Of a stretch of 64,000 bases of DNA, positions 10,108-41,121 are shown one piece after another; position 1 is the stretch's first letter, and every line of letters starts with the position of its first letter. The translations under genes were made by a program, and so were the position numbers. This DNA comes from an uncultured Prevotellaceae bacterium (GTDB lineage Bacteria; Bacteroidota; Bacteroidia; Bacteroidales; Muribaculaceae). A model generated the notes under the pieces. The model was not told where the DNA came from and did no database searches. It saw nothing but the letters and a program-made list of their open reading frames with translations. The stretch lies in the NCBI GenBank assembly GCA_900318205.1, contig ONJS01000002.1, positions 109,908 through 173,907 of the forward strand. The letters are read 5' to 3'.

Positions 10108-10221
10108 GTCAGTTTGAAGTTTTCAGTTTTCAGTTGTCAGTTTTTAGTTGTCAGTTGTCAGAAAGCAGATGCTTCTTTAAACATTAAACTTTAAACATTA
10201 ACCTGCGAGCGCCAGCTCGCA
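10108..10221 (-). repeat. Composite heptad-repeat intergenic element, copy 1
   Basis: Read on the minus strand from the exonuclease stop codon: the stop TAA is followed directly by TGCGAGC...GCTCGC, then GTTTAAA/GTTTAAT heptamers, an AAGCATCTGC core, and CTGACAA/CTGAAAA heptamers that end at the coaBC start. The same order recurs at 11005-11129, 32760-32960, 39384-39480 and 40940-41121. No known element family is recognised. Confidence 0.85.
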
Positions 10222-11004
10222 TTATCGTTTCTTGTACTGGATGTAGAGTTTGGTGATGACCTGCTTGGTGTTCTCGGCAAAGTCACTCTTCATCATCCAG
10301 TCATAGTAACCCAAATCGAGTTTGGTAAACACGTCTTCTACGGTTTTGCCCTTGTGCTTGCCGAAGTTGAAGACGGGAACCTTCTGCTCGTTATAGATGA
10401 TACGGCCTGCCAAATCCACGTTACGGTTGTGGGAAGAGTATTGTGACAGGTAGTCAACATCGTTCTTCAGCGGTTCAGCGTCATTGGCATAGTGATCCAA
10501 CTGAGCCTTCAGGACCTCGAGTGTCGTCTTGGCATCATCGGCTGCTGAGTGGTGATTGTCCATGGGATGTCCGCAGTAGAAGATACAGGCTGCCTCCAGG
10601 TCGCGTTTCTCACGCTTGTGGTAGATGGTCTGCACATCGATGAACTTGTGCTGCGACGGATCAAAACTGATGCCTGCCTTGCTCAGTTCCTGAGCCAGCA
10701 AGGGTATGTCAAAATGATTGCTGTTAAAGCCAGCAATGTCACAGCCTTCAAACACACGGGCAATATCGTGGGCACGTTCTTTGAAGGTGGGTTCGTTCAC
10801 CAGGTCTTCATTGGTGATGTGATGGACATCAATGGCCTGCTGGGGAATCACCTTCTCGGGATTGAAACGATAAGTCTTGCTCTCTTCACGACCATCGGGA
10901 TAGACCTTGACATAGGACAACTCGATGATGCGGTCCTCGGTGATATTGAGGCCGGTGGATTCCAGGTCAAAGACCACCAGAGGACGATTCAAGTTCAGTT
11001 TCAT
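10222..11004 (-). CDS. DnaQ-family 3'-5' exonuclease with ExoX-like C-terminal domain
   Basis: A 260-residue DEDDh exonuclease. The N-terminal domain has VVFDLESTGLN (Exo I, D and E), HHITNEDL, FNSNHFDIPLL (Exo II) and HHSAADDAKTTLEVL (Exo III with His and Asp). The C-terminal ~60 residues (VPVFNFGKHKGKTVEDV, DLGYYDWMMKSDF) match the small domain found in ExoX-like and DUF3820 proteins, not the polymerase-binding region of E. coli epsilon. It is often annotated as DNA polymerase III subunit epsilon; a general 3'-5' exonuclease role is equally possible. It follows dnaN on the same strand. Confidence 0.9.
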   Translation of the reverse strand: MKLNLNRPLVVFDLESTGLNITEDRIIELSYVKVYPDGREESKTYRFNPEKVIPQQAIDVHHITNEDLVNEPTFKERAHDIARVFEGCDIAGFNSNHFDIPLLAQELSKAGISFDPSQHKFIDVQTIYHKREKRDLEAACIFYCGHPMDNHHSAADDAKTTLEVLKAQLDHYANDAEPLKNDVDYLSQYSSHNRNVDLAGRIIYNEQKVPVFNFGKHKGKTVEDVFTKLDLGYYDWMMKSDFAENTKQVITKLYIQYKKR

Positions 11005-11129
11005 TTTTTCAGTTTTCAGTTGACAGTTTTCAGTTGTCAGAAAGCGGATGCTTCTTTAAACATTAAACTTTAAACTCTAAACTGCTCGCACAGCGAGCAT
11101 ATAACCACTAATCTGCGAGCTTGCTCGCA
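11005..11129 (-). repeat. Composite heptad-repeat intergenic element, copy 2
   Basis: On the minus strand, directly after the dnaN stop: TGCGAGCAAGCTCGCA, a GATTAGT heptamer, a second GCTCGC/GCGAGC palindrome, GTTTAGA/GTTTAAA/GTTTAAT heptamers, GAAGCATCCGC, then CTGACAA-type heptamers up to the exonuclease start. Same polarity and order as the other copies. Confidence 0.85.
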
Positions 11130-12248
11130 TTAAATCATCATTGGCATCTGCAGCACGATGAGGTCCTCACCAGCCTTCTGTTCGCTGGGAACAAACACGC
11201 CGGCACGGGCAGGATCGAGCAACTTGAGGTAAACACCGTCACAATCGATGTTGTTGACCACGTCAATGACATCAGCGCTCTTGAAGCCGATGTTCATGGG
11301 CTCGCCATTGTACTCACAGGCGATGGTCTCCTCGGCAGCAGTAGAGTGGTCAACGTCCTGAGAGGTAACGACTACCTCGGTGGGACGCAGGTCCAGACGA
11401 ACGAGGCCACCCACGTTGGCAAACACAGCCACACGGCGCACGGCATTGAGCAGCGTCTGGCGTTCTACAGCCATGGTGTAGGGATTGTCCTCGGGAATTA
11501 CCGAGTTATAATTGGGGTAACGGCCGTTGATGAAGCGGCAAGACAGCTGAAAATCGGCGTTCTCAAAGGTTGCACTGCTCTCGTCAACGGTGATATTGAC
11601 GTTCTCCTCGCTGTTAGCGTCGATAATTGATGCGAGAATCGAAGCGGGCTTGGCGGGCAAAATGAAGGAACGCTCAAAGTCGGGCTTCACATCGGTCTGA
11701 CGGAAACGCACCAGCTTGTGGGAGTCACTGGCAACATACACGATCATGTCGGGCTTGATGTCCCAGAAGATACCGGTGAACTGCGGGTGCATGTCATCGT
11801 TACCCACGGCGAAGAGCGTGTGGCCGATGCCCGATGCAATGCTCTTGGCGGGCAGGGAGAACTGCTGCACCTCATTGGCGGTGGCAGCCTTCTCGGGATA
11901 CTCGTCGCCATTGAGGGCTACAGCATCATAATAACCGTTTACATAGCTTACCTTAACGGCGAGCGTCTCATCATTGATCTCAAAGGTGAGTCCCGTGTCG
12001 GGCAATTCCTTCAAGGAGTTGATGGTGCGCTTCACGTCGAGGGCGAATTTTCCACTACCTTCCACATTCTGCACCTCAATGTTGGTGGTCAGGCGCGTTT
12101 CCATGTCACTGCCTGTTACCACAATGCGGTCGCTCTGCAGTTCAAACAGGAAGTTGTCGAGAATGGCATAGGCATTCTTGCTGCTAACCACTTTGCTCAC
12201 AGCATTCAAGCGGGTGAGCAACAATTTACTTTGGACGTTGAATTTCAT
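11130..12248 (-). CDS. dnaN: DNA polymerase III beta sliding clamp
   Basis: A 372-residue clamp with the three repeated clamp folds (MKFNVQSKLLLTRLNAVSKVV at the start; NAVRRVAVFAN in the third). The C-terminus ends VLQMPMMI, resembling the MPMRL-type end of clamps. It holds polymerase on DNA and recruits repair factors. A TATCTTTG promoter core lies 53 bp upstream. The next gene downstream is the DnaQ-like exonuclease, a common pairing in Bacteroidetes. Confidence 0.97.
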   Translation of the reverse strand: MKFNVQSKLLLTRLNAVSKVVSSKNAYAILDNFLFELQSDRIVVTGSDMETRLTTNIEVQNVEGSGKFALDVKRTINSLKELPDTGLTFEINDETLAVKVSYVNGYYDAVALNGDEYPEKAATANEVQQFSLPAKSIASGIGHTLFAVGNDDMHPQFTGIFWDIKPDMIVYVASDSHKLVRFRQTDVKPDFERSFILPAKPASILASIIDANSEENVNITVDESSATFENADFQLSCRFINGRYPNYNSVIPEDNPYTMAVERQTLLNAVRRVAVFANVGGLVRLDLRPTEVVVTSQDVDHSTAAEETIACEYNGEPMNIGFKSADVIDVVNNIDCDGVYLKLLDPARAGVFVPSEQKAGEDLIVLQMPMMI

Positions 12249-12301
12249 ACAATTATGTACCTTAATATCGTTATTAATTTTTTGCTCTATTATTTAACCT
12301 A

Positions 12302-12309
12302 CAAAGATA
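12302..12309 (-). promoter_or_regulatory. Predicted promoter -7 element for dnaN
   Basis: The minus strand reads TATCTTTG, matching TAnnTTTG. No clear -33 TTG at the usual spacing was seen. Confidence 0.5.
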
Positions 12310-12361
12310 GTCATTTTTTCTCAAATAAAAACAGATATACCCGACGTTGTTAATAAAAAAA

Positions 12362-12396
12362 CGAAAAAAAACGCTATCAATTGCCTTGATAACGCT
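12362..12396 (-). terminator. Rho-independent terminator after the thioredoxin/dockerin gene
   Basis: On the minus strand AGCGTTATCA and TGATAGCGTT form a 10-bp stem (two wobble pairs) with a 7-base loop, followed by a run of seven T. It lies 31 bp beyond the stop of the gene at 12427. Confidence 0.75.
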
Positions 12397-12426
12397 TTTT
12401 AAGGATTTAATTGCTCAACTGTGTGG

Positions 12427-13488
12427 TCACTCAGTTTGGCTCAATAGCATGTTAATCAGTGCCACCACATCATCGATGTTCACTTTTCCATCGTTGTCAA
12501 CGTCGGCATTTTCCATGTTGACAAGAGTGGCATCACGGTACAGCAGATAATTGATAAGGGCAGTCGCATCATCGATACTTAACTTACCGTCATCATTCAC
12601 GTCACCGTACATAACAGTATGGTAGTCATTGATAAAGCATCTATTGGCGTTTACAGCTCGGTCATTAGCCTTATTGACAATCACAGCAATCACGTGCAGG
12701 TTGTCCTTGTTCTGGATGAGCGAGGGCTTAGGCAGGCTACTGAGCGTAAAACTATAGTGATAGCTGTAATCATTATAGGCAACAATCTCTGACGGCAGGC
12801 TGCCGGTTGCGACACCGCTTGTGCCGATGATCACATCGTTAAAGTGGTAGCCAGAGACAACTTCAGGTTTAGTTACCCACGGCCCAAGATACGGATCGCT
12901 GGAATAATAAGTAGTGCCACTATAATAATTCTTTTGATTCCATGAAGAGCCGCTACCGTACAGGTCATCGGCAACGAGCATGACTTCAATGGCATAATTG
13001 GCACTTTGCTCATCAATGGTGAAATAGCAGGTCACATCCACATCAATGGCCGTCTTCTCGTCACTGGTCCACTGGGCTGTCACGGCGGCATCGGCATTCA
13101 CAGCAATGGCGGCATATTGTTCCATATCGTTGACAATGCCAGCCGAATAGCCACTAAAGCCATAGAACGGATCAACTTCGCGAGACCTCTCGATAAATGC
13201 GGTTGGATATCCCCAGAAACTGCTGGGGAAATCATTAGTGTACATGATCTCCATGGGATCATCATTGTGGTACGCAACGCCGATGAATTCGTCGCCAAAT
13301 CGCTGCCTTAGCAGCTCCATGCCGACAAGGCCACGGACACACCATCCACACCACGTGCCAGTATATTCCTCTATTAGAGGCCGATGAACAGGAACCCTGT
13401 CAACATTGACATCCTGGGCTGATGTTCCAAAAGCCATCAGTACTGCAGCGATGGCCATCAAAGGTTTAGAATTTCTCATCATATTCAT
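12427..13488 (-). CDS. Secreted thioredoxin-fold (Omp28-like) protein with dockerin-type C-terminus
   Basis: A 353-residue exported protein. A signal peptide ends near FGTSAQ. LIEEYTGTWCGWCVRG carries a CxxC (CGWC) motif of the thioredoxin fold, as in Omp28-related Bacteroidetes proteins, followed by FPSSFWGYPTAFI with a cis-Pro-like position. A beta-rich middle follows. The last ~60 residues are a dockerin type I-like pair: GDVNDDGKLSIDDATALINYLL and ADVDNDGKVNIDDVVALINMLL, each with a calcium-loop DxNxDGxxxxxD pattern. A related C-terminus is on the amidase at 19691-23659. No cohesin was seen in the window, so the dockerin may serve another attachment or sorting role. Confidence 0.8.
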   Translation of the reverse strand: MNMMRNSKPLMAIAAVLMAFGTSAQDVNVDRVPVHRPLIEEYTGTWCGWCVRGLVGMELLRQRFGDEFIGVAYHNDDPMEIMYTNDFPSSFWGYPTAFIERSREVDPFYGFSGYSAGIVNDMEQYAAIAVNADAAVTAQWTSDEKTAIDVDVTCYFTIDEQSANYAIEVMLVADDLYGSGSSWNQKNYYSGTTYYSSDPYLGPWVTKPEVVSGYHFNDVIIGTSGVATGSLPSEIVAYNDYSYHYSFTLSSLPKPSLIQNKDNLHVIAVIVNKANDRAVNANRCFINDYHTVMYGDVNDDGKLSIDDATALINYLLYRDATLVNMENADVDNDGKVNIDDVVALINMLLSQTE

Positions 13489-13530
13489 CGCAGATTAGTG
13501 ATTAAAGAGTCAAGTGTTCTCGTCCTTTTC

Positions 13531-13582
13531 GTTAAAAAGCAGCAAGCGCCGGAAGGTGTTACAGGAACCACCCGGCGCTTGC
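13531..13582 (-). terminator. Rho-independent terminator after the DUF1015 gene
   Basis: GCAAGCGCCGG (13542-13552) and CCGGCGCTTGC (13572-13582) form a perfect 11-bp stem. On the minus strand it is followed by TGCTTTTTAAC, and it lies 44 bp past the DUF1015 stop codon. Confidence 0.85.
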
Positions 13583-13625
13583 GTGGGAGCGAGCTTAATA
13601 GAAGCTCAATACCTTGCCAGCCTGA

Positions 13626-14870
13626 TTAGTCCAGCTTGTGGATAATCAAGCCCGAGCGCAGCTTGGGCTCAAACCAAGTGGCCTTGGGAGGCATGATCTT
13701 GCCGCTGTCGGCGATGTCGATGATCTGCTTCATGGTGACGGGGTAGAGGGCGAGCGCCATCTTCATCTCACCACTGTCCACGCGCTGCTTCAATTCGCCC
13801 AGGCCGCGGATACCGCCCACGAAGTCGATGCGCTTGTCGGTACGCAGGTCGGTAATGCCCAGGATGTCGCGCAGGATGTAGTCGCTCGAGATGGTCACGT
13901 CGAGCACGCCGATGGGATCGTTGTCATCATAGGTGCCTTCCTTGGCAGTCAAGGAGTACCACTTGCCACCCAGGTAGAGGGAGAAGTTGTGGAGCTTGGC
14001 GGGATGGTAGATTTCGGTGCCCTTATCCTCGACGATGAACTTGTCGCCCAGCTTCTCGAGGAACTGCTCCTCTGTGTTGCCGTTCAGGTCCACTACCACG
14101 CGGTTGTAGTCCATCACCTTGAGGTGAGACTGGGGGAAGCAGACAGCCAACAGGTAGTTGTACTCCTCGGTGCCGTTGTGGTTGGGATCAGCCTTGGCTT
14201 TCTCCTCGCCTACGTGAGCGGCAGCGGCGGTGCGGTGGTGACCGTCGGCGATGTAGAGATAAGGAATCTCACTGAATGCACGGGTGATGGTCTCGATGGT
14301 CTCCTTATCCTTGATGACCCACAGGGTGTGGCCGATACCGTCCTCGCTCACGAAGTCATATTCGGGCTCGGTCTGGGCGGTACGGGTGAGGATGTCCTGC
14401 AGCACCTTGTTGTCGGGGAATGCCAGGAACACCGGCTCGATGTTGGCGTTATTGATTTCGATGTGGTGCATGCGGTCAGCTTCCTTCTCACGACGGGTAA
14501 GCTCATGCTTCTTGATGCGTCCAGTGAGGTAATCCTCAACGCTGGCGCCTACCACAAATCCGTATTGGGTGCGGCCATCCATGGTCTGAGCATAGATGTA
14601 GTAGCAGTCCTGCTGATCCTGTACGAGCCAGCCCTTGTCCTGGAACTTCTTGAAGTTCTCAACGGCCTTGTCATAGACCTTGGGCTCATGCTCACCGGTG
14701 CCGGGTTCGAAGTCGATTTCGGGCTTAATGATGTGATACAGAGACATCTCGTTGTCGCCAGCCTCGGCGCGGGCCTCTTCACTGGAGAGGACATCGTAGG
14801 GCTTGGAAGCTACTTTTTCTACATACTCTTTGGGCGGTCTCACGCCACGGAACGGTTTTACTTTAGCCAT
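13626..14870 (-). CDS. DUF1015 family protein
   Basis: A 414-residue cytoplasmic protein starting MAKVKPFRGVRPPKEYVEKVA, with YDVLSSEEARAEA, LYHIIKPEIDF, YIADGHHRTAAAAH and FVGGIRGLGEL. These match DUF1015 (PF06245), whose bacterial members often neighbour serine/phosphoglycerate metabolism genes. The HHR-containing motif may be catalytic or ligand-binding, but the function is unknown. A strong terminator follows; the Fur-family gene lies 74 bp upstream on the same strand. Confidence 0.9.
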   Translation of the reverse strand: MAKVKPFRGVRPPKEYVEKVASKPYDVLSSEEARAEAGDNEMSLYHIIKPEIDFEPGTGEHEPKVYDKAVENFKKFQDKGWLVQDQQDCYYIYAQTMDGRTQYGFVVGASVEDYLTGRIKKHELTRREKEADRMHHIEINNANIEPVFLAFPDNKVLQDILTRTAQTEPEYDFVSEDGIGHTLWVIKDKETIETITRAFSEIPYLYIADGHHRTAAAAHVGEEKAKADPNHNGTEEYNYLLAVCFPQSHLKVMDYNRVVVDLNGNTEEQFLEKLGDKFIVEDKGTEIYHPAKLHNFSLYLGGKWYSLTAKEGTYDDNDPIGVLDVTISSDYILRDILGITDLRTDKRIDFVGGIRGLGELKQRVDSGEMKMALALYPVTMKQIIDIADSGKIMPPKATWFEPKLRSGLIIHKLD

Positions 14871-14944
14871 GATAAATTAACGGTTTTAAATAAAGTGTTA
14901 ATAGATTTTGTTGAATGTTTATTATTGATGTATTATACTGATTG

Positions 14945-15427
14945 TCATGTGGATCGCGACCGCTTTTTCTTGCGCGCACAGGTGCTGCAAGTGCCATAAA
15001 CATACAGGCAATAGTGGTCGGCATTAAATGCGTTGAAACGGCGGGCGTTCATGAATGCGGCAAAATTGGTGTCCCTCACTTCCTTGACCTTTCCACAGGA
15101 GGTGCAGATCAAGTGGGTGTGGGGTAAAGTGATGCGCTCATACTGGGCCTGCATCCCTTCAAACACATGCCGACGCAATATCTTGGCATCCATCAGCAAC
15201 TCGATCGTGTTATAGACCGTTGAACGGCTCACCATAAAACCGTCGGCGTCAAGCACTTGTTGGAGTTCCTCGATGGTGAAATGACCTGAAATGTCCATGA
15301 TGCGCCTCATGATGGCAAAGCGCTCGGCAGTCTTGCGCATGCCATGGGCATCCAGGTAGTCGCTGAACTTGCGTACCACCGGGTTGTTCATGTCATTAAA
15401 TCCCTCGATATTTGGTTCGGTTTTCAT
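14945..15427 (-). CDS. Fur-family transcriptional repressor
   Basis: About 160 residues from the start MKTEPNIEGFNDMNNPVVRKF. This start is chosen because a TACTTTTG promoter core at 15436-15443 lies inside the longer frame that opens at 15466. A winged helix (FTIEELQQVLDADGFMVSRSTVYNTIELL) is followed by the dimerisation domain with HTHLICTSCGKVKEV (CxxC) and YGTCSTCARKKK (CxxC), a structural zinc site. Which metal or peroxide signal it senses cannot be told; Fur, PerR and Zur share this plan. It ends in an unusually basic tail (KKKRSRST). Confidence 0.9.
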   Translation of the reverse strand: MKTEPNIEGFNDMNNPVVRKFSDYLDAHGMRKTAERFAIMRRIMDISGHFTIEELQQVLDADGFMVSRSTVYNTIELLMDAKILRRHVFEGMQAQYERITLPHTHLICTSCGKVKEVRDTNFAAFMNARRFNAFNADHYCLYVYGTCSTCARKKKRSRST

Positions 15428-15435
15428 CGGTGTGA

Positions 15436-15443
15436 CAAAAGTA
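15436..15443 (-). promoter_or_regulatory. Predicted promoter for the Fur-family gene
   Basis: The minus strand reads TACTTTTG, with a TTTG about 20 bp upstream as the -33 element. It is 9 bp from the chosen start codon, giving a very short leader. Confidence 0.5.
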
Positions 15444-15535
15444 CAATGATTTTCGCAATCCCACAAAGATTTTAGCTTTTTTAGTTTTTAAGTCCTTAAA
15501 GCCCTCGAACCTGGCATGAATGAGTTGCCTTAAAA

Positions 15536-16186: not shown

Positions 16187-16215
16187 GATAATCGTCTTGT
16201 CGATGAATTGAGCCA

Positions 16216-16223
16216 CAAAAGTA
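16216..16223 (-). promoter_or_regulatory. Predicted promoter for the HAD phosphatase
   Basis: The minus strand reads TACTTTTG, 30 bp upstream of the ATG at 16186. It is divergent from the plus-strand TAATTTTG at 16246. Confidence 0.5.
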
Positions 16224-16245
16224 CTGAAAAATGCCTAATAATTAG

Positions 16246-16253
16246 TAATTTTG
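16246..16253 (+). promoter_or_regulatory. Predicted promoter for the FAD-dependent oxidoreductase
   Basis: TAATTTTG matches TAnnTTTG, 21 bp upstream of the ATG at 16275. This supports the shorter start. Confidence 0.5.
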
Positions 16254-16274
16254 TGGCATAATTCGTTTACGACT

Positions 16275-17834: not shown

Positions 17835-17951
17835 CAGTCTTTATGACATAAATAATAACTGAAGCATCATTTTTTTGCGCGTTTCACACAATATGGCGCA
17901 CTTTTTGCAGTTATTGATGCAATTAGTTTTCATTTATTCATGTTTACTATT

Positions 17952-18656: not shown

Positions 18657-18676
18657 AATCAATCAGACAACAAATT

Positions 18677-18710
18677 AAGGTCACCCTGGCAAAGACGCCA
18701 CGGTGACCTT
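18677..18710 (+). terminator. Terminator between convergent genes
   Basis: AAGGTCACC (18677-18685) and GGTGACCTT (18702-18710) form a 9-bp perfect stem followed by TCTTGTT on the plus strand. It lies between the SIMPL gene and the convergent propeller gene and may serve both. Confidence 0.65.
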
Positions 18711-18744
18711 TCTTGTTGAATCATGCCTCTACTAGGCTCGACGG

Positions 18745-19690: not shown

Positions 19691-22600
19691 TCAATTCGCA
19701 TTCAACAGAAGATCAATGAGACTGGTCACATCCGAGATGCTGACTTTATCGTCACCATTGACATTAGCTGCATTAAGGTCGATCGGTTGCGGGTTGCCAC
19801 CCAAGAGATGACTGATCAATGTGGTTACGTCACTAATGGTCATATGTCCATCGCAGTTCACGTCACCTATTACGAAGGCTTGTCCCTTGGTAACGGTAAG
19901 CGCTGCCCGGGCTGGTGTTGTGCTCTGGTTGTCATCGGTAGGCATGGAGTAGATACCGATATTACCACCGGCACACACGAGGTTGCCACCCCAGTCAAAC
20001 GCCATCTGGTAGATAGCATTCACACTTGAACGGGCATCAGCCTCAAACGAGATACCATTGGAAGTCAAGGTAGGTGTTGATCCGTTCCAAGTGATGTCGT
20101 AGAACTGTAATACACCGTCGCCATCGTTGATGACCATCATGTCGTTGCTGTTATTAATGGCAAAGCCCGACATCAGCGAGCCGTTGAGTGAAGAGAGGTC
20201 ACTACCGGAATTGTAAACCACTTCGCCAGCATTATCCACAAAGACAAGCGATGGAACAGAGGCAAGGTTTTGGCCCTTGCTGCGGTATTGCATGACCCAA
20301 GTGCCACGTCCACCGGCATCAGCAATGATATTACCATTACCATTGATCATGAGTGCTCCCACATCAAGCAGCTTGTTGGGAGCCTCATCCCAGGTTGAGA
20401 GCAGGCTGCCGTCTTCTTGGCCGATATTGTAAATACCCACGTTATTACCCTTTCCTGACGGTGCAATCACGTCCTCAAGGAAGGCATAGAGTTTGGTATC
20501 GGCACCAGTGCCCTGAATCCATACGCCGGGAACTGAACCGCCCACGCTTTGGCCGTTATTGGTGATGAGACCATCGGAATTGCGCGAACCAACAAAGAAT
20601 TGGGTATAAGTGCCATCCAGATGGTCTGGATCAGCCACATAAATGCCCGAAGTGGCATCGCCCCATTCGGGAATATAAATCTTGCCCTCACCATCAACGG
20701 CAAGTCGCATATTGTTAGCCCATGTGATGCCGCCATTATATACAGAAGCATTGCGGGGCTGACCGTTGATGTCGCAAGCATAAATACCGTTACCGGCATT
20801 ATTCTTGGCGATGCGCTCGCCTACATAGATGGTGCCGAAGTGGGCACTCTCGGGGCTGCGGTCAATAGCTACAGCGGCACGGGTATAGTTAGCGTAATGG
20901 TCATTCAGTCGGACGATTCGGGTAATGGCATCGCCCTTGACGTTGACTGCCCAGTTCATGACTTGTCCGCTCTCGCCAGGCAACTGGTCCTTGGTCAAAG
21001 TTACCGTGTTTTCACCTTCAACGACATTCTCCAGTGCAACACGTCCTACTTCCTCACCTGTGTTCTTGTCCGTAAAGACAAGATAAGCCTCACGGGCATC
21101 GGAGTTGGCTTTAAAGGTAAAGGTGTATGCGCCGTCATTTGCCTCAGTGCTGGTCAATTCATAGGCATAGATACCCTTGACAAACGAGGTATCAACAGGG
21201 ATTTCCTTCTTAACTACGCTCAGTGCAGTCCTTGCAGGAGTCAGACTCTCGTTGACAGAGGTGGGCATGGAATAGATGCCGATATTTTTGCCGGCACAAA
21301 TGAGGTTGCCGCCCCAGTCAAACGCCATCTGATGAATTGCATTGGCACTCGTACGGGCATCAGCGACATAGGTCGTTCCTGTGGACGTCAGGGTTGGCGT
21401 ATTTCCGTTCCAAGCGATATCGTAGAACTGCAGCACACCGTCGCCATCATTGATCACCAGCAGGTTGCCCTCTTTGTTAATGGCAAAGCCAGCGATAGCC
21501 GAGCCGTTAAGGCTGGTCAGGTCGGTTCCTGAATTGAACAGGACATTACTGTTATAGTCGGTGAATACCAATGAGGGCACTTGGGCGGTATTCTGTCCCT
21601 TGCTGCGGTTTTGTGCTACCCAAACGCCACGGCCACTGGGATCGGTGATGATATTACCATTGGTGCTGGCTTCAAGTGCACCGATGTCAAGGTAATTGCT
21701 GGGAGCCTGATTCCAAGTGTTGACAATGCTGCCGTCGCTCTGACCGATATTGTAAACACCGATACCGTTCTTATTACCTGACGGGCCTGCAAGGTCCTCA
21801 AGACAGGCAAACAGCTTGGTGTCGGCACCAATGCCATCCACCCAAAGGCCAGAAACCGAACTGCCGATTCCCACGCCATTGTTGCTGATTAGACCGTTGC
21901 TGGCACGAGTACCATCAAAGAAAGGAGTGAAATCACCACCCAGGTTATCGGGATCAGCAATATAGATTCCTGACGAAGCATCTGCCCAGTCGGGGATATA
22001 AACCTTGCCTTCACCGTCCACACTGATGCGGAAGCAGTTGCTCAAAGCTTGTCCTCCGCGATAGGGCGAGGTATTGAAGGGCTTACCATCCACATCACAG
22101 ACATACAAGCCATTACCTGCATTGTCCTTGCCAACGCGTTCACCCACGTAGATGGTGCCGAAGTGGGCACTCTCGGGATTACGGTCAATGGCGACAGTAG
22201 CACGGGTATAGGTGGCATTGACGCTGTTCACACGTTCAATGCTCGTAATGGCCTCTCCAGTTACATGTATTGACCATGAAAGTACCTGACCGCCTTCGCC
22301 AGGAAGTTCTTCGGGTGCCAACGTGATGGTATTATTACCCTCGACAATGTCATTCAGGTTGATGCGACCGACTTCCTCACCGCTCACGCTGTCAGTAAAG
22401 ATGAGGCAGGCATCGGTGGCGTTGCTGTTGCACTTGAACGAGAATACATAATTGCCGTTGTTGTCAGCCGTACGGTTCAAGTCATAGGCGAAGATGCCCT
22501 TAACGGGTTCATGGCTAACAGGTTCGCCGCCTTCCATATAGAGCACCATGTGGGTCGTTTCGTTAGCAGTAACGGTGTAAGTATCACGGATGGCCAGGTC

Positions 22601-23659: not shown

Positions 23660-23737
23660 TCTGCAAAGATTTTAAAGTTGAACATTTTGGTTATTAAGAG
23701 AGACTAAAGTCTTTTGTTTTTTTATTGATTTGATGAT

Positions 23738-23777
23738 CTAGATGTACTAGATACTCTAGATTTTCTAGAATACCTAG
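23738..23777. repeat. 9-bp tandem repeat with CTAG cores
   Basis: Five CTAG tetramers start at 23738, 23747, 23756, 23765 and 23774, exactly 9 bp apart. The units read CTAGATGTA, CTAGATACT, CTAGATTTT, CTAGAATAC, CTAGATGGT. The array lies between the GH20 stop and the start of the next gene downstream. A similar array is at 51323-51353. Confidence 0.85.
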
Positions 23778-23801
23778 ATGGTGATTACCCCTTAATCGTT
23801 A

Positions 23802-30582: not shown

Positions 30583-30590
30583 CCATTGAA

Positions 30591-32759: not shown

Positions 32760-32960
32760 TGCGAGCGTTGCTCGCATTAGTGATTAGAGATTAGTGATTA
32801 GTGAGGCATCCGCTTTTGTGCGAGCGTTGCTCGCAGTTTAAAGTTTAATGTTTAAAGTTTAATGAAGCATCCGCATTCTGACAACTGAGAACTGACAACT
32901 GACAACTGAAGACTGAAAACTGACAACTGAAAACCGACAACTTTAAAATATAATTAGCTT
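32760..32960 (+). repeat. Composite heptad-repeat intergenic element, copy 3
   Basis: The stop TAA (32757-32759) is followed at once by TGCGAGCGTTGCTCGCA, GATTAGT/GATTAGA heptamers, GAGGCATCCGC, a second GCGAGCGTTGCTCGC, GTTTAAA-GTTTAAT twice (32836-32863), GAAGCATCCGC, then CTG every 7 bp from 32878 to 32927 (CTGAGAA, CTGACAA, CTGAAGA, CTGAAAA). It ends ~20 bp before the tricorn-like start. This copy appears to contain a nested partial duplication. Confidence 0.9.
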
Positions 32961-35900: not shown

Positions 35901-36197
35901 ATCGGCACCCGTTCATGGGGCGGCATCGTGGGCATCAGCGGCTCACTGCCCTATATGGACGGTACCGACATCCGCGTGCCCTTCTTCACCAACTATGACA
36001 CTCGCGGCAACTGGATTGTTGAGAACCACGGCGTGGATCCCGACATCCTCATCGACAACGACCCCGTCTTGGAGAACCAGGGTATTGACCAGCAGCTGGA
36101 CAAGGCCATCGAGGTTATCCTTGAACAACTCAAGGACCGCAAGCCCATGCCCAAGACGCCTGCTCCCCGCACGATGCATGACCTGGGCGTGGATTGA
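32961..36197 (+). CDS. Tricorn-type protease, S41 family
   Basis: 1078 residues with a signal peptide (MRIKIFLMAGLAAAALTCQA), so exported, unlike archaeal tricorn. Residues ~25-330 and ~335-530 form PD40-type propellers (YSPDGQTIAFTGQYDGNTEVYV, WSPDGKNIAYISDQTGETEIW, FSPDGKWLTYYRQGP). A Lys/Pro-rich linker (KSKEAPKDAPKDKKGKGKA) follows, then a PDZ domain near 760-840 (MNVKEGDIITAVDGVSAAGV) and the S41 peptidase domain with GGGNISPM and NKYSASDGDLF carrying the nucleophilic Ser (961 or 963). It probably degrades peptides in the periplasm. It follows the glycosidase-like gene, separated by a heptad-repeat element. Confidence 0.93.
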   Translation: MRIKIFLMAGLAAAALTCQADEGRLLRFPGTNGREVAFSYAGDIYTVPITGGTARKLTSHKGYEAFARYSPDGQTIAFTGQYDGNTEVYVMPSQGGEPKRITFTATNPRDDWGDRMGPNNITMAWTPDGRGVIYRNRISDSFNGKLWCAPIDGSMAQPLPLPEGGFCCYNADGSKLAYNRVFREFRTWKYYKGGMADDIWIYDTQAKTVTNITNNIAQDIDPMWIGDEIYYMSDRDNRMNIFVYNTRTGATQKVTDFTEYDVKFANCGGGKIVFENGGYLYVLDPATKRSEKITVYLNSENNFAREEQRKVKDNLTAGSLAPDGSRLAISARGEVFDVPAKHGVTRNITHTPGVHERNAAWSPDGKNIAYISDQTGETEIWVRPVGSDQARQLTFDNDTYIRDLEWSPDGSQIVYTDRKNRMVMVNVNSKVANKKILLTDEMGEIPTPKFSPDGKWLTYYRQGPNEFGVVYLYNIAEGKEYPVTDRWYDSNSPVFSSDGKYLIFASARDFNPIYSSVEWNFAYRDMEGIYLVLLSKDTPSPFLPKDDQVMAGDDKSKEAPKDAPKDKKGKGKAQADPNAVRIDIDGIADRIVKVPIGTGAYGNFVCNGTHLWYSGRGSVRVYDFAEQKDEMVAERAYMVPSADLKTAAYLKGDNVYIAPLAPRKADLSEAVNLDDMIATVNYDQEWNQIFNEAWRAYRDGFYVETMHGVDWQAMHDKYAALLPYVKNRLDLTYVIGGMIGELAVGHAYVDGGDHITIDQHNIGMLGAELEQVANGFKITKILRGAPDRESLRSPLLEPGMNVKEGDIITAVDGVSAAGVNNIYTLLRDKADVMTELTLGDGRKVVVKPIQNEYPLYHYEWVQHNIDYVNEKTGGRVGYVYIPDMGPEGLREFSRYFFAQTDKEALIVDDRANGGGNISPMVIERLLRQPYRLTMFRGSNYNGTIPERTLYGPKVLLVNKYSASDGDLFPWSFKENKLGTVIGTRSWGGIVGISGSLPYMDGTDIRVPFFTNYDTRGNWIVENHGVDPDILIDNDPVLENQGIDQQLDKAIEVILEQLKDRKPMPKTPAPRTMHDLGVD

Positions 36198-36245
36198 TGC
36201 TCGCTGCGCTCGCTGATTAGTGATTAGTGAAGCATCCGCATTCTT
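36198..36245 (+). repeat. Composite heptad-repeat element, partial copy 4
   Basis: Directly after the tricorn stop TGA: TGCTCGCTGCGCTCGCT, GATTAGT twice, GAAGCATCCGCATTCT. The CTGACAA tract is missing; a different repeat (CGCTAAGA/CGCTAAGT, 8-bp units, ~36253-36278) follows instead. Confidence 0.75.
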
Positions 36246-36360
36246 TTAGTCTCACGCTAAGACGCTAAGTCGCGAAGACATTTATTATTGCTCGCAAGAG
36301 GCTCGCAATAGTTATTTATTGCATACCCTTGCGAGCAAATTTTATACGGAAAAGCCTGTA

Positions 36361-36382
36361 GAGACGCAAAATCTTGCGTCTC
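36361..36382. repeat. GAGACGCAAAA palindromic repeat, copy a
   Basis: A 22-bp near-palindrome with arms GAGACGCAA and TTGCGTCTC. Further copies are at 36412-36433 (perfect palindrome) and 37980-38001. Confidence 0.8.
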
Positions 36383-36408
36383 CCGATAGGCGACACAATA
36401 TGCTGACC

Positions 36409-36577
36409 CTGGAGACGCAAAATTTTGCGTCTCTACATAGTTCGTACATCATTTTTCATCATTTTTCACCATTTTCCACATTTTCCACACTGTTCACATG
36501 GGTGTGTGATTTCACTCTGGGGTGGGAAATTTGTGGAAAGGCACGTATATAGTGGAAAGGGTGGAAAAAGTGAAAAA
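36409..36577 (+). repeat. Left 169-bp direct repeat flanking the ATPase gene
   Basis: Starts with the GAGACGCAAAA palindrome, continues through CATAGTTCGTACATCATTTT, and holds an internal inverted repeat: arm 36460-36488 (CATTTTTCACCATTTTCCAC...) and arm 36552-36579 (...GTGGAAAAAGTGAAAAATG). It is nearly identical, by eye, to 37977-38145. Confidence 0.9.
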
Positions 36578-36651
36578 TGGTGGAAAGACCAACTATTATT
36601 GATGAATAAACGTGGAAAAATTGGTATTTCGCAAACTTTCATGGGAGAAAA

Positions 36652-36684
36652 TTTGGATTTCGGGGTGTTGATGTCGTAACTTTG
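36652..36684 (+). promoter_or_regulatory. Predicted promoter for the ATPase gene
   Basis: A TTTG -33 element (36652-36655) and TAACTTTG -7 element (36677-36684) at 21-bp spacing match the Bacteroidetes consensus. The leader is about 85 bp. Confidence 0.6.
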
Positions 36685-36774
36685 CAGCGGCAAGTCTACG
36701 GTCGATAGCCGATGCTAATGACTAACGACTCGCCAATTTATTTCACTTATATTATTTTTTTATAATTTTTTACC

Positions 36775-37842
36775 ATGGAAAACATAAATTTAATTCTAGA
36801 CGCGATTGATCGCGAAGCAGTACTCTCCCCCGAGGAGAGATTAAATGAGGATTACAACAACTTCATGAAGCCTTATTTCATCGATCGCAATGTTGAATAT
36901 CCCGATCCCGAGTACCTGATAGAGATTGGCGGTGTTCCCACGATGCCCAAGGGTAACCTGGTGGCTGTGAGCGCCAAGTGGAAGAACGGCAAGACCTTCT
37001 TTTGCGACATCTTGACTGCCATCTTCATGGGAAGCGACCGTTTTGTCAATTGCCGCAGCCTGTGGGAATCTGGACGGGCTTTGTTCTTTGACACTGAGCA
37101 GTCTGAGAGTGACACCAAGCGTGTCCAAGGGACCATAGATGCGATGACGCCCCTGAGCCGCCACGACGACTATAGGGTGGCATGCTTGCAGTCAGCACCC
37201 ATAACTGGCGACACGTACAACAGCTCGGAGCCTTCCCGCTATGAGGTCATCAACCGTGCTATCGCACACGAGCATCCTGACCTGGTCATCGTTGATGGCA
37301 TTGCCGACCTGATTTACAACTACAACGACGTGATTGAAAGCCAGATCATCGTCAACAAACTGGCGACGATGGCCAACAAGTACAATTGCTGTATCGTCGT
37401 GGTCATGCACCAGAACAAGAGCAGCTTGGACAAGAACATGAAGGGTCACCTGGGTACCATGCTTTATCAGAAATGCAGCGACGTGTTCAACGTCGAGAAG
37501 CACGACAGCGTGTTTGAGGTGAAACACGGTAACAGCCGCCACCGCACCTGCGACGGCATCTGCTTCAAACTCGATGCCAATGCCGTGCCCATAGATGCCG
37601 CAGCCGACCGCCGACTGCAACAGGAACAGAAAAAACAGGAAGACAAGGCCAAGCTGCATTCCAAGCTGGCTCACTGCTTTGAGGGTTTCAGCAAGCCCTT
37701 AAACAGCGCCGATGTACTTAATCTGATACAGGGAAGGCTAGGTGTGGGAAAGACACGAGCCTATCAACTGTTCAACAGCGGGAAGGAACAAGGACTGCTG
37801 ACGAGTAGCGACGGCAATTTATTTTCCCTCCAAGCTTTATAA
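36775..37842 (+). CDS. RecA-fold (RepA-like) ATPase with C-terminal winged helix
   Basis: 355 residues, no signal peptide. A variant Walker A SAKWKNGKT is at residues 66-74; LFFDTEQSESDTKRVQ follows; Walker B is DLVIVDGIADL (Asp174); VVVMHQNKSS is the sensor-like motif. This is the AAA_25/RepA hexameric-helicase pattern seen in plasmid and mobile-element replication proteins. A charged helix (QQEQKKQEDKAKLHSKLAH) leads to a C-terminal helix-turn-helix-like tail (residues ~300-355, LGVGKTRAYQLFNSGKEQGLL). No primase, recombinase or mobilisation gene accompanies it. It is flanked by direct repeats 36409-36577 and 37977-38145. The role may be replication of a degenerate element or a domesticated function; neither is shown. 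Confidence 0.8.
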   Translation: MENINLILDAIDREAVLSPEERLNEDYNNFMKPYFIDRNVEYPDPEYLIEIGGVPTMPKGNLVAVSAKWKNGKTFFCDILTAIFMGSDRFVNCRSLWESGRALFFDTEQSESDTKRVQGTIDAMTPLSRHDDYRVACLQSAPITGDTYNSSEPSRYEVINRAIAHEHPDLVIVDGIADLIYNYNDVIESQIIVNKLATMANKYNCCIVVVMHQNKSSLDKNMKGHLGTMLYQKCSDVFNVEKHDSVFEVKHGNSRHRTCDGICFKLDANAVPIDAAADRRLQQEQKKQEDKAKLHSKLAHCFEGFSKPLNSADVLNLIQGRLGVGKTRAYQLFNSGKEQGLLTSSDGNLFSLQAL

Positions 37843-37857
37843 AACACTTCTATCAGC

Positions 37858-37926
37858 CATATTTCACTTTTCCACTATTTTCACTTCATATATATTAGAG
37901 TGAAAAAGGTGGAAAAGTGAAATATG
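37858..37926. repeat. Long inverted repeat after the ATPase gene
   Basis: Arm 37858-37885 (CATATTTCACTTTTCCAC...) and arm 37899-37926 pair at 26 of 28 positions, separated by 13 bp. Arms are built from GTGGAAA and GTGAAA words, as in the flanking direct repeats. It begins 16 bp after the stop codon and may act as a terminator or protein-binding site. Confidence 0.85.
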
Positions 37927-37976
37927 GCATGTTATCCCAAGATTTACATGACAATAGACGTTGGGGGTTGCCTGCA

Positions 37977-38145
37977 CTGGAGACGCAAGATTTTGCGTCT
38001 CTACATAGTTCGTACATCATTTTTCATCATTTTCCACCACTTTCCACATTTTCCACCCTGTTCACATGGGCGTGTGATTTCACTCCAGGGTGGGAAATTT
38101 GTGGAAAGGCACGTATATAGTGGAAAGGGTGGAAAGAGTGAAAAA
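37977..38145 (+). repeat. Right 169-bp direct repeat flanking the ATPase gene
   Basis: Same length, order and internal inverted arms as 36409-36577. Differences are scattered substitutions such as GACGCAAGATT for GACGCAAAATT and CACCCTGTTC for CACACTGTTC. Confidence 0.9.
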
Positions 38146-38189
38146 ACGAAAACAAAGGGCGCTAACTCTAAAAATATGTTTTCGGTCGC

Positions 38190-38219
38190 TTGCCATGAAG
38201 GAAAAATGCAGTATCTTCG
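38190..38219 (+). promoter_or_regulatory. Predicted promoter for dxr
   Basis: TTGCC (-33, 38190-38194) and TATCTTCG (-7, 38212-38219), one mismatch to TAnnTTTG, 20 bp before the ATG at 38240. Confidence 0.5.
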
Positions 38220-38239
38220 CAGTTTGTAACAAAATCAGT

Positions 38240-39406
38240 ATGAGAGAGACAAGACGAAATATTGCGGTGCTGGGTAGTACCGGGTCCATCGGACGTCAGA
38301 CGCTCGACATCATTGCCGAATATCCCGACATGTTCAATGCCTGGCTGCTGGTAGCACGCAGCAGTGCCGACCTGCTCATCCAGCAGGCAAGACAGTTTCG
38401 CCCCCACATGGTCATCATTGCCGATGAGCAGTACTATGAGTATGTGCGTGATGCCCTCGAGGACACCGACATCGAGGTGGCAACGGGCAGCAGTACCATC
38501 GCCCAAGCCGTCACCGCGCCCGAGGTAGATACCGTGGTCACTGCCATGGTGGGCTACAGCGGCCTGGAATCGACGATTGCCGCCATCGGTGCTGGCAAGC
38601 GCATTGCCCTAGCCAATAAAGAGACCCTCGTGGTGGCTGGCGAACTCATTGACCGCCTGCTCAAGGATTCCAAGAGCGTGCTCTATCCCGTGGATAGCGA
38701 GCACGGCGCCTTCTACCAGTGCCTGGTGGGCGAGCGCATGCAGGACGTGGAGAAGCTGTGGCTGACAGCCTCGGGCGGTCCGTTCCGCACCTTTCCCAAG
38801 GAGAAACTCGCCACCGTTACCGCTGCCGATGCCTTGAAACACCCCAACTGGTCGATGGGAGCGAAAATCACCATCGACTCGGCGACGATGATGAACAAGG
38901 GCTTTGAGATGATCGAGGCTCGCTGGCTGTTTGGCATCTTGCCGCGCGACATCGAGATTGTGGTGCATCCCCAGAGTATCATCCACTCGATGGTGGCTTT
39001 CAAGGACGGCTCGGTGAAGGCCCAGTTGGGTTTGCCCGACATGCACCTGCCCATCCGTTACGCCCTGGGACTGCCTGACTGCCGCCTGGCGAGCGATTGC
39101 CGCAAGATGACCATCGAGGACATGGCGACGCTGACGATGGAACGCCCCGACCGCGAGAAATTCCCGCTGCTGGATACCGCCTACCGTGCGGCTCACCTGG
39201 GCGGCACAGCCCCCTGTGTGATGAATGCAGCCAACGAGATTGCCGTCGCCGCCTTCCTGCAGGATAAAATCCGCTTCACCGACATCTACCGCATCATCGA
39301 GAAAACAATGGAACAGATGCCTCACGTGGAGAGTCCCACCTACGACGACTACGTGACAAGCAATGATGAAGCTCGTGCGCGAGCGCTCTCGCTGATTAGA
39401 GATTAG
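38240..39406 (+). CDS. dxr: 1-deoxy-D-xylulose 5-phosphate reductoisomerase
   Basis: 388 residues from MRETRRNIAVLGSTGSIGRQ; the frame opens at 38090 but that extension is repeat sequence and covers the promoter. It catalyses the NADPH-dependent step to MEP in non-mevalonate isoprenoid synthesis. Motifs are GSTGSIG (NADPH), ALANKETLVVAGE, PVDSEHGAFYQCL (metal Asp/Glu), ASGGPF and HPNWSMGAKITIDSATMMNKG. The last codons (ARARALSLIRD) read through GCGCGAGCGC...GATTAG, which resembles the start of the heptad element, so the natural C-terminus may have been altered. Confidence 0.96.
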   Translation: MRETRRNIAVLGSTGSIGRQTLDIIAEYPDMFNAWLLVARSSADLLIQQARQFRPHMVIIADEQYYEYVRDALEDTDIEVATGSSTIAQAVTAPEVDTVVTAMVGYSGLESTIAAIGAGKRIALANKETLVVAGELIDRLLKDSKSVLYPVDSEHGAFYQCLVGERMQDVEKLWLTASGGPFRTFPKEKLATVTAADALKHPNWSMGAKITIDSATMMNKGFEMIEARWLFGILPRDIEIVVHPQSIIHSMVAFKDGSVKAQLGLPDMHLPIRYALGLPDCRLASDCRKMTIEDMATLTMERPDREKFPLLDTAYRAAHLGGTAPCVMNAANEIAVAAFLQDKIRFTDIYRIIEKTMEQMPHVESPTYDDYVTSNDEARARALSLIRD

Positions 39407-39480
39407 TGATTAGAGATTAGTGAAGCATCCGCTTTCTGACGACTGAAAACTGACGACTGAAAACTGACAACTAAAAAAGA
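39384..39480 (+). repeat. Composite heptad-repeat element, copy 5
   Basis: GCGCGAGCGCTCTCGCT, GATTAGA/GATTAGT heptamers (the first overlaps the dxr stop TAG), GAAGCATCCGCTTT, then CTGACGA/CTGAAAA/CTGACAA heptamers. It is followed by a doubled AAAAGACGAATAAA just before the rseP start. Confidence 0.8.
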
Positions 39481-39505
39481 CGAATAAAAAAAAGACGAAT
39501 AAAAA

Positions 39506-40939
39506 ATGATATTACTTGCATCAACGTTTTGGATCAAGACCTTTGAACTGCTGTTAGCATTAAGTATACTTGTTGTATTTCATGAGTTTGGACACTATTT
39601 CTTTGCCCGCGTTTTTGGCGTTTGGGTAGAGAAATTCTATATGTTCTTTAACTACAAGCTCACGCTCCTGAAATGGAAACCCGGCAAATATCTCAAGTGG
39701 TTCTCCACGGGAGACGAGATGGGAGCCATGGAAGAGGGCGAGGAGGTCAAGGAAGAAAACAAGACCTCGTGGCGTGCCACCGAGTATGGCATCGGCTGGA
39801 TTCCCCTGGGCGGCTATTGCGCCATCTCGGGAATGATTGACGAGTCGATGAACACCGAGGCCATGAAGAAGCCCGCCAAGCCTTGGGAATTCCGCAGCAA
39901 GCCTGCCTGGCAGCGCCTGCTGATCATGCTGGGCGGCGTGTTGTTCAACCTGCTGCTGGCGATGATCATCTATGCCGGCATCGTCTATGCCGTGGGCGAG
40001 CAGTTCGTCAAGTTTGCTGACGCTACCGAGGGTATGGAATACTGCGACAGTGCACACAAGGTAGGCTTTGTCGATGGTGATATCCCCTTGGCTGCCGACG
40101 GGACGCCGCTGGGTTACCTGAACGCTGACGAGTTGCAGACCATGCTCACCGCCCATCAGGTGACCGTGCTGCGCAACCACAAGGACACCGTGACCATCAA
40201 CCTGCCCGAGAATTTCATCTTCCAGGCCAATGAGGATGCCAAGAACGGAGAAATCTTTATGGCTTACCGCTTGCCGGTTGTCGTCTCTCAGACACAGCCC
40301 GGCATGGGTGGTGAAAAGGTGGGCTTGCAGGATGGTGACCGCATGATGGCCATCAACGGCGTGCCCACGCCCAGTTTCAGCGAGTTCACTGCCGAGCTGG
40401 AGAAGAACAAGGGCAAGAACATCACCCTTGACTTCGAGCGTGGCGGCAAGACCTTAACAGTCACCGATGTCCCCATTGACGGCAACGGCAAGTTGGGTAT
40501 CCTGCTCACCGACCCGACCAAGATCTACAAGACGACGGTCATCCATTACAACATCCTGCAGTCGATACCTCGCGGCATCGAGATGGGATGGACCAAGATG
40601 GTGAACTATGTAAAGCAACTTAAACTCATCTTCACTCCCGAGGGAGCACAGAGCCTGGGTGGTTTCGGCACCATCGGCAGCATCTTCCCCGCTACATGGA
40701 ACTGGGTGGACTTCTGGAATATCACCGCCTTTATCTCGGTGATCCTTGCCGTGATGAACATCCTGCCCATTCCCGCACTTGACGGTGGCCACGTGATGTT
40801 CCTGCTCTATGAGATCATCACCCGTCGCCAGCCCAGCATCAAGTTCCTGGAGAGGGCACAGTATGTAGGTATGATGCTGTTGCTTGCCCTGCTGCTGTAT
40901 GCCAACGCTAACGACATTTATCGATTCTTGTTCAAATGA
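39506..40939 (+). CDS. rseP: RseP-type site-2 intramembrane metalloprotease (M50)
   Basis: 477 residues. HEFGH (His26, Glu27, His30) lies in the first transmembrane helix. Additional membrane segments (LLIMLGGVLFNLLLAMIIYAG; the C-terminal helix) surround two PDZ-like domains: residues ~180-240 and ~265-330 (GMGGEKVGLQDGDRMMAING). The second zinc motif is PALDGGHV. In other bacteria RseP cleaves anti-sigma factors and signal peptides within the membrane; here several anti-sigma-like proteins exist (60227-60889), but a link is not shown. The dxr-rseP pair is conserved in the phylum. Confidence 0.95.
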   Translation: MILLASTFWIKTFELLLALSILVVFHEFGHYFFARVFGVWVEKFYMFFNYKLTLLKWKPGKYLKWFSTGDEMGAMEEGEEVKEENKTSWRATEYGIGWIPLGGYCAISGMIDESMNTEAMKKPAKPWEFRSKPAWQRLLIMLGGVLFNLLLAMIIYAGIVYAVGEQFVKFADATEGMEYCDSAHKVGFVDGDIPLAADGTPLGYLNADELQTMLTAHQVTVLRNHKDTVTINLPENFIFQANEDAKNGEIFMAYRLPVVVSQTQPGMGGEKVGLQDGDRMMAINGVPTPSFSEFTAELEKNKGKNITLDFERGGKTLTVTDVPIDGNGKLGILLTDPTKIYKTTVIHYNILQSIPRGIEMGWTKMVNYVKQLKLIFTPEGAQSLGGFGTIGSIFPATWNWVDFWNITAFISVILAVMNILPIPALDGGHVMFLLYEIITRRQPSIKFLERAQYVGMMLLLALLLYANANDIYRFLFK

Positions 40940-41121
40940 TGCGAGCGTTGCTCGCAGTTTAGAGTTTAGAGTTTAATGTTTAATGAAGCATCCGCTTTCT
41001 GCCAACTGACAACTGAGAACTGACAACTGACAACTGACAACTGAGAACTGACAACTGACAACTGACAACTGAAAACTGAGAACTGTCAACTGAAAACTGA
41101 AGACTGACAACTGAAATAAAA
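40940..41121 (+). repeat. Composite heptad-repeat element, copy 6 (longest array)
   Basis: The rseP stop TGA is followed at once by TGCGAGCGTTGCTCGCA, GTTTAGA twice, GTTTAAT twice, GAAGCATCCGC, then 17 consecutive heptamers with CTG at 40999, 41006 and every 7 bp to 41111 (CTGACAA, CTGAGAA, CTGAAAA, CTGTCAA, CTGAAGA). It ends 11 bp before the next ATG. Confidence 0.92.

Follow-up and report, generated by a model that had tools for sequence, protein, structure and literature searches.

The 64,000-nucleotide stretch of DNA analysed here (the window), part of contig ONJS01000002.1 (C23 in our numbering) of an uncultured Prevotellaceae bacterium, carries composite elements built of tandem heptads between its genes. 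They are members of a non-coding repeat family that occurs genus-wide in gene junctions, a quasi-palindromic mosaic in which a G/T-rich heptad array (the R arm), a short hinge, GCATCCGC, and an A/C-rich heptad array (the Y arm) are combined, and in which R arm, hinge or Y arm may be missing or swapped. Copies are numerous and dispersed, R arms tend to lie to the left in a spacer and Y arms to the right, and orthologous junctions differ in the presence of copies as well as in their arm families. The reading that we favour, and to which we give an even chance of being right, is that this is a fast-turning, mosaic family of spacer repeats, probably selfish or neutral, rather than a switch.

Read in the direction of transcription, the window copies start with a palindrome of GCGAGC type where one is present, continue with GATTAGW or GTTTARW heptads as the R arm, and then have the hinge and a Y arm, which consists of CTGANAA heptads and is present in five of the six copies described in an initial annotation of this DNA. 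The hinge is exactly GAAGCATCCGC in five copies and GAAGCATCTGC in the first, while the third has an additional GAGGCATCCGC. With at most one mismatch, GAAGCATCCGC matched the window nine times, seven of these inside the six copies, as compared with a mean of 1.48 and a maximum of 5 in shuffled sequences. Base-by-base reading, with tandem arrays also detected with Tandem Repeats Finder (TRF), placed the six copies where the annotation had put them and bore out the strict 7-bp period of their tandem tracts.

The component motifs are abundant in the genome (G000; a draft of 3.62 Mb, 94.77% complete with 2.33% contamination). Exact GAAGCATCCGC gave 20 matches and its reversed control none; CTGANAACTGANAACTGA with up to two mismatches gave 420 against 3 for the control, and three successive GTTTAAW units gave 80 against 3. 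Three successive GATTAGN units gave 83 matches, with a control that is uninformative because the pattern is symmetric. Arrays were then surveyed in 81 segments (539,406 bp) fetched around listed pattern matches; CTGANAACTGANAACTGA loci came from the first 100 of the 420 matches, so that array loci that match less well may have escaped the survey. The segments contained 156 period-7 arrays, distributed over 111 spacers, while one shuffle per segment gave none. The arrays represent 26 unit types, 24 of which were seen on inspection to contain CTAA, CTGA or TTAA on one strand. Of the 61 tandem arrays with periods of 4–13 in 400 kb of sequence (the window plus regions from ten relatives), 42 had period 7, and 12 had period 9, the second commonest. 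Within the 81 segments GCATCCGC also terminates other modules, for example GCATCCGCGTTCC...GGAACGCGGATGC palindromes and nine-base arrays, which suggests that it is a general mosaic joint.

The arrangement of arms within spacers follows a simple rule. A unit was called R when G+T exceeded A+C on the plus strand, and 147 arrays were classified, nine of the 156 being set aside at segment ends. R arrays were nearer the left edge of the spacer and Y arrays nearer the right in 126 of the 147: 61/68 in spacers between plus-strand genes, 42/52 between minus-strand genes, 16/17 in convergent and 7/10 in divergent spacers. The same rule was followed by 64 of 77 arrays that were alone in their spacer, and the order in 34 multi-array spacers was RY in 30, RRY in two, RR in one and YR in one. 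In relatives, represented by 107 loci of other genomes fetched by the hinge pattern, 122 of 157 arrays conformed, with 17 at edges set aside. This R-left, Y-right arrangement makes the elements quasi-palindromes; the two arms are mutual inverted repeats only in a palindromic subclass, and their lengths vary.

This geometry bears on the proposal in the initial annotation that the element is polar with respect to transcription and restricted to spacers between co-directional genes. All six window copies are indeed polar. In the genome as sampled, hinges preceded by an R arm in co-directional spacers lay along transcription in 34 cases and opposed to it in 13, with a further eight in divergent and six in convergent spacers. 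Where such a hinge was followed by a CTGANAA arm, 19 were aligned with transcription and one against, as compared with 15 and 12 where a CTGA arm was missing; the corresponding figures in relatives were 9 versus 0 with a CTGANAA arm, 46 versus 28 without a Y arm and 2 versus 2 with another Y arm (19 edge hinges set aside). All extragenic GCATCYGC sequences in co-directional spacers, with or without an R array, divided 41 to 21 in favour of transcription. The two exceptions to the CTGA-arm rule were at C19:65639, in the opposite orientation, and at C19:58148, in a convergent spacer, where the CTGA arm faces the stop codon of a gene that is AraC-like by eye. Array-bearing spacers included 14 convergent and seven divergent among the 111, as compared with 41 and 37 among 312 for all spacers of at least 30 bp, array-bearing ones included, which would be a mild deficit at most; these class counts are no random sample, because the segments were picked for holding pattern matches. 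In the relatives' loci, 65 R-preceded hinges lay outside co-directional spacers, 53 of them convergent and 12 divergent. We conclude that strict polarity has to be rejected for the family in general, since 21 of 111 spacers are convergent or divergent and 13 of 47 co-directional R-preceded hinges are opposed, and that it is to be kept for copies with a CTGA arm, being weak or absent in the others. Copies in convergent and divergent spacers are in part the outcome that the annotation had named as refuting its polarity claim. The further suggestion of a mobile repeat constrained to co-directional spacers survives in a weak sense, in that copies are scattered and that their presence varies between orthologous junctions; the constraint itself does not.

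Comparison of orthologous junctions (relatives are labelled by G-numbers, other fetched loci by L-numbers) revealed turnover of unit families and lengths. The relative G032, which has 87% DNA identity to the window at the rseP region, carries arrays at all five array-bearing window junctions compared, with lengths changed and arms partly changed, and at none of the 23 where the window has none; at dxr/rseP its R arm is AGTTAGG in place of GATTAGW. The junction between rseP and an RlmI-like methyltransferase gene was compared in ten relatives. It holds a composite of 182 bp in the window genome and 139 bp in G032, is a 4-base ATGA overlap in G018, G025 and G033, contains other repeat families in G076, G073, G084, G024 and G009 (identified by the array detector in G084 and G024 and by eye in the rest), and is a short spacer without heptads in G002. 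Relatives other than G032 had arrays at 8 of 25 junctions where the window has one and at 1 of 32 where it has none. At one further junction (C30 of G000 compared with L301) the flanking proteins are identical and the spacers, equal in length, differ by base changes only. The copies are presumably gains relative to compact junctions.

In the account that we favour, arms would lengthen and shorten by 7-nucleotide slippage, while whole composites would be copied to other junctions, perhaps by recombinational copying between spacer repeats rather than by a transposase, and would survive where harm is small. Being a quasi-palindrome, such a composite presents an R arm on the left and a Y arm on the right in either orientation. 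Copies with the Y arm facing a start codon would be kept because start codons are scarce on the Y strand and all three of its frames are stopped, while the reverse arrangement would bring ATG (GCGGATGC), GTG and TTG into the leader. The apparent polarity would then result from the quasi-palindromic build combined with this filter against start codons in leaders. Composition is in keeping with such a filter: the 6049 nucleotides of arms contain 20 potential start codons in the Y sense and 272 in the R sense, and of the 156 arrays 149 have stops in all three frames when read in the Y sense and 103 when read in the R sense. Furthermore, the arrays nearest a start codon were in the Y sense in 58 of 63 cases. 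Genes were called by a simple codon-score script, so that some start codons are wrong. An incidental effect of copies on the leader of the downstream gene is possible.

Several results weigh against this account. Composition and the sense of near-start arrays speak for the leader filter, but its distance prediction failed: opposed hinges were not significantly farther from start codons (P = 0.53), and a cut at 100 nucleotides gave 17/34 versus 3/13 (P = 0.11). Nor does the filter alone explain the preference of R arms for stop codons. The clustering of exact cores, with 33 pairs within 50 kb as compared with 5.2 under uniform placement, speaks for the account, and neighbours shared hinge subtype in 47 of 157 pairs, against 20.3 when labels were permuted over all contigs. 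This sharing was nevertheless not significant when labels were permuted within contigs (P = 0.15–0.18), and R family was not shared between neighbours (P = 0.21), so that copying between neighbouring sites lacks firm support; the subtype sharing may come from mixing in the draft genome. The checks for reverse transcriptase, for Y1/RAYT transposases and for target duplication identified no copying mechanism, target-site duplications of at least 5 nucleotides being found at 4 of 30 copies against a permuted mean of 2.0 (largest 5), which is no excess. In loci of ten genomes outside the genus the edge rule was followed by 19 of 29 arrays, one having been set aside, which is not significant. Finally, sigma-70-like matches between 32400 and 41300 of the window were slightly more numerous than in shuffles, at 11 as compared with 6.4 (standard deviation 2.2), and the Y arm of the third composite contains two of them, so a transcriptional effect is possible.

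The edge rule follows the nearest spacer edge and not gene direction, which would fit growth of the arrays from DNA ends: at a break or nick in a junction, a slipping or template-switching polymerase would extend one or both sides outward with G/T-rich heptads before the ends are joined. Such growth would yield R on the left, Y on the right, unrelated arm families, a fixed 7-nucleotide step and no target-site duplication; no such duplication was found, the arms at one junction were often of different families by eye among the loci listed, and a similar edge rule has been reported for GGGAATC-type heptads in Xanthomonas and Anabaena (PMC4692102). We nevertheless think it unlikely. At 67 sites an R array is followed by the hinge, and the parts often keep a fixed order, which independent growth at each site would not produce. 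The edge rule is not significant outside the genus, and no enzyme has emerged: a reverse transcriptase was rejected as maker, since 22 of 35 array-rich genomes lack one and its occurrence does not correlate with the number of arrays (rho −0.04). Formation of the arms by fold-back was likewise rejected, since the arms of four palindromic copies are, by eye, not complementary unit by unit. A broader version strikes us as quite improbable. In it the edge rule, with G/T-rich heptads running from both spacer edges towards a central joint, would be the mark of a process that acts on DNA ends in seven-nucleotide steps and mends or fills junction breaks, somewhat as telomere addition heals ends, in Bacteroidota, Cyanobacteria and Gammaproteobacteria alike; the GCATCCGC hinge would there be the joint of two extended ends. 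We likewise think it unlikely that Y arms are functional 5′ leaders, with protein- or ribosome-binding sites tuning translation as proposed for the TAACTGA repeats of Beggiatoaceae, and R arms their by-products. The Y sense of near-start arrays and their paucity of start codons would fit, as would the position of the last ACT, which begins 5–13 nucleotides before the start codon in 29 of 51 Y arrays, and the presence of dnaN, coaBC, dxr and rseP among the flanking genes. Yet orthologous genes in relatives lack arrays or overlap, Y arrays show no 7-nucleotide phase with start codons, and single R-sense arrays near stops (33) are matched in number by single Y-sense arrays near starts (31).

Movement in trans by a transposase, as for a miniature inverted-repeat transposable element (MITE) or a REP-like element, would account for composites that recur with a fixed order of parts, and four palindromic copies from elsewhere in the genome fold strongly (z −6.3 to −8.5). 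Y1 transposase genes occur in 55 of 61 genomes of the genus, with a match in 34 of the 35 array-rich ones, and their number correlates weakly with that of arrays (rho 0.26, P = 0.04). They are also found in five of nine genomes without the array pattern, and the heptad element flanked none of the 16 Y1 genes whose surroundings were fetched (nine genomes, 220 nucleotides per side), where other palindromes stand instead; one of the 16 has GCGGATGC 90 bp downstream, without arrays. With ends that vary in family and length, and without target-site duplication, we regard a transposase-driven element as rather improbable, and a RAYT/Y1 transposase in particular is not supported. Least probable, and in our estimate very doubtful, is a functionally conserved structure in the transcript that serves termination or RNA processing, the first possibility raised in the initial annotation. 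Of the 156 arrays, 30 have a palindrome directly 5′ of the R strand and 12 have one on the opposite side, as compared with 16 of 269 control positions, and this association resides in GATTAGW (18/32) and GTTTARW-type (12/36) arrays; beside the two commonest units, AGTTNTC/AACTGAN, it was seen in none of 49. Several adjoining palindromes are longer than the GCGAGC one and differ between loci, so that the latter is one of several; some are terminator-like by eye. Against a conserved function, unit families and lengths turn over between orthologous junctions, and RNA folding of the six window copies is unremarkable (z −0.4 to −2.3), conserved RNA structure being absent in the copies folded. A match resembling an intrinsic terminator (a G+C-rich hairpin with a T run) was found along transcription in one of the six window copies, such matches being no commoner in the scanned regions than in shuffled sequence, and no Rfam model matched the window at gathering score.

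In the window itself, the first two composites are on the minus strand. Composite 1 (10108–10221), between a DnaQ-like exonuclease gene (10222–11004) and coaBC (8899–10107), consists of a palindrome (10221–10204), a GTTTAAW R arm (10201–10177), the GAAGCATCTGC hinge (10175–10165) and a CTGANAA Y arm (10161–10111). Composite 2 (11005–11129), between dnaN (11130–12248) and the DnaQ-like gene, has a palindrome, a single GATTAGT unit, a second palindrome, a GTTTARW R arm (11083–11056), the GAAGCATCCGC hinge (11054–11044) and a Y arm (11040–11006). The next four are on the plus strand. Composite 3 (32760–32960) is double, two tandem R-hinge modules sharing one Y arm: the first has a palindrome (32760–32776), a GATTAGW R arm (32776–32804) and the GAGGCATCCGC hinge (32803–32813), and the second a palindrome (32819–32835), a GTTTAAW R arm (32835–32862) and the GAAGCATCCGC hinge (32864–32874), followed by the Y arm (32878–32941). 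Composite 4 (36198–36245) is partial, with two GATTAGT units and a hinge (36229–36239), and is followed by other repeat modules as far as 36577. The order of parts that the annotation had ascribed to every copy breaks down here: the palindrome is broken, GCTCGC...GCTCGC being a direct and not an inverted repeat, and there is no Y arm. Composite 5 (39379–39480), between dxr and rseP, has a short palindrome (39379–39392), a GATTAGW R arm (39393–39420), a hinge (39422–39432) and a Y arm (39436–39477); it was correctly located, although its palindrome begins at 39379 and not at 39384 as first given. Composite 6 (40940–41121), between rseP and the RlmI-like methyltransferase gene, has a palindrome (40940–40956), an R arm (40956–40985), a hinge (40985–40995) and a Y arm (40999–41117), in which the longest tract has, as originally counted, exactly 17 CTG-phased units from 40999, the last at 41111–41117. 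A seventh R/Y composite, new to this analysis, lies on the minus strand at 51289–51384 and uses other unit families, with an R arm of TTAGGAA type, a 9-bp TCTAGANAT array and a short CTAAGGA Y arm, without the GCATCCGC hinge.

Five of the six copies, rather than the four first noted, begin immediately behind a stop codon. The remaining one, composite 5, extends over the 3′ end of dxr and provides the stop codon of that gene, TAG at 39404–39406, inside the second unit of the R arm. By eye, the last Dxr residues are encoded by the palindrome and R arm at 39379–39406, and at L193 and L187 (G018 and G073) the end of Dxr is encoded by Y-type heptads; elements therefore encroach on gene ends. The flanking genes dnaN, coaBC, dxr and rseP were identified by scores above curated cut-offs, and there were weaker matches for the DnaQ-like exonuclease, a TolB-propeller/S41-peptidase-like protein and the RlmI-like methyltransferase. 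The genes flanking the window copies look like housekeeping genes.

Of 61 genomes of the genus, 52 contained four successive AACTNNN units, the number of matches per genome ranging from 0 to 325; across the phylum 123 of 296 genomes did so, mostly with few matches. G016, G161 and G332 are rich in the reversed control (TCAANNN heptads) and poor in AACTNNN; other heptad families may dominate there. The R-hinge pattern occurred in at least 107 stretches, and among the 80 listed all titles but one were those of Bacteroidales, Prevotellaceae or Muribaculaceae metagenome-assembled genomes (MAGs), several named after ruminant gut samples; the remaining one, L275 from a Chloroflexi MAG, is a single match without arrays and was taken as chance. 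No hinge element was present in the viral contigs searched, and a phage origin was rejected on that ground. AACTGAN heptad arrays were seen in 104 viral-contig stretches (L318–L397 and further loci), which may offer a route between hosts.

Short tandemly repeated (STRR) heptamers are dispersed between genes of cyanobacteria, as the arrays are here; they are not known to form the composite architecture. REP and REPIN elements, with their RAYT transposases, resemble the present family as dispersed intergenic palindromes, but the latter has tandem heptad arms and no RAYT was linked to it among the Y1 genes examined. The TAACTGA direct repeats of Beggiatoaceae, Cyanobacteria and some Bacteroidetes (MacGregor, 2015; PMC4679880) are 7-bp and mostly intergenic, and in a Beggiatoaceae genome lie mostly forward and close to a start codon; the same work reports other heptamers in the spacers that hold them in some Bacteroidetes, and shorter spacers without obvious repeats in close relatives. 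Our arrays share the strict 7-bp period, the dispersed intergenic loci and an AACTGAN Y-arm unit that lies forward before start codons. They differ in having 26 unit types and a two-armed composite, the hinge, the opposed R arm and the adjoining palindrome not being described in the accessible sections of that paper (PMC4679880). When intergenic, the GGGAATC and GGGGA(T/C)T heptamers of Xanthomonas and Nostoc/Anabaena are almost exclusively closer to the open reading frame (ORF) on the repeats' 5′ side, whatever its direction (PMC4692102). They share with our arrays the 7-bp period, variability in length and sequence between relatives, and the edge rule of the R arms: a G/T-rich strand starting near the ORF on the 5′ side, irrespective of direction, is what the 126 of 147 arrays here and 122 of 157 in relatives display. 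In contrast, their unit forms G-quadruplexes and occurs mainly in single arrays, with one inverted pair shown and no hinge described in the accessible part of that paper (PMC4692102). BrickBuilt of Porphyromonas gingivalis is similarly an intergenic tandem repeat within a larger element of a Bacteroidales genome, but has a 23-nucleotide unit and a leader and tail with small inverted-repeat ends (PMC4596501). No description of a two-armed composite was found in the open-access literature searched or in the accessible parts of the TAACTGA, GGGAATC and BrickBuilt papers. We read the family as kin to TAACTGA-type repeats.

Heptad repeats have hitherto been reported piecemeal in unrelated bacteria, and two accounts of them give no settled cause (PMC4679880, PMC4692102). 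By analogy, a strand rule resembling one in unrelated bacteria may reflect a shared way of making such repeats. Here a single genus holds them in large numbers, with a defined anatomy, a strand rule, and orthologous junctions at which they are absent, present or of another family, and the origin of seven-base repeats therefore becomes testable by strain comparison. If the family is neutral, it is a warning against reading tidy spacer signals as regulation. Composites that separate genes overlapping as ATGA in relatives may affect translational coupling.

The window also contains other repeats. The spacers at 36246–36774 and 37843–38145 are packed with other repeat modules, namely CGCTAAG repeats, GCTCGCAAGAG, GAGACGCAAAATTTTGCGTCTC palindromes and TTTTCCATCATTTTTC tracts, and the sequence at 36409–36577 is repeated at 37977–38145 with 95% identity. 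Nine-base tandem arrays, of the TCTAGANAT type and TATAGGAAC, are present at 23737–23780, 51321–51353 and 52224–52255. A 300-nucleotide repeat with 73% identity (19893–20192 and 21216–21515) falls within a reading frame of 1322 amino acids and probably reflects repeated protein domains.

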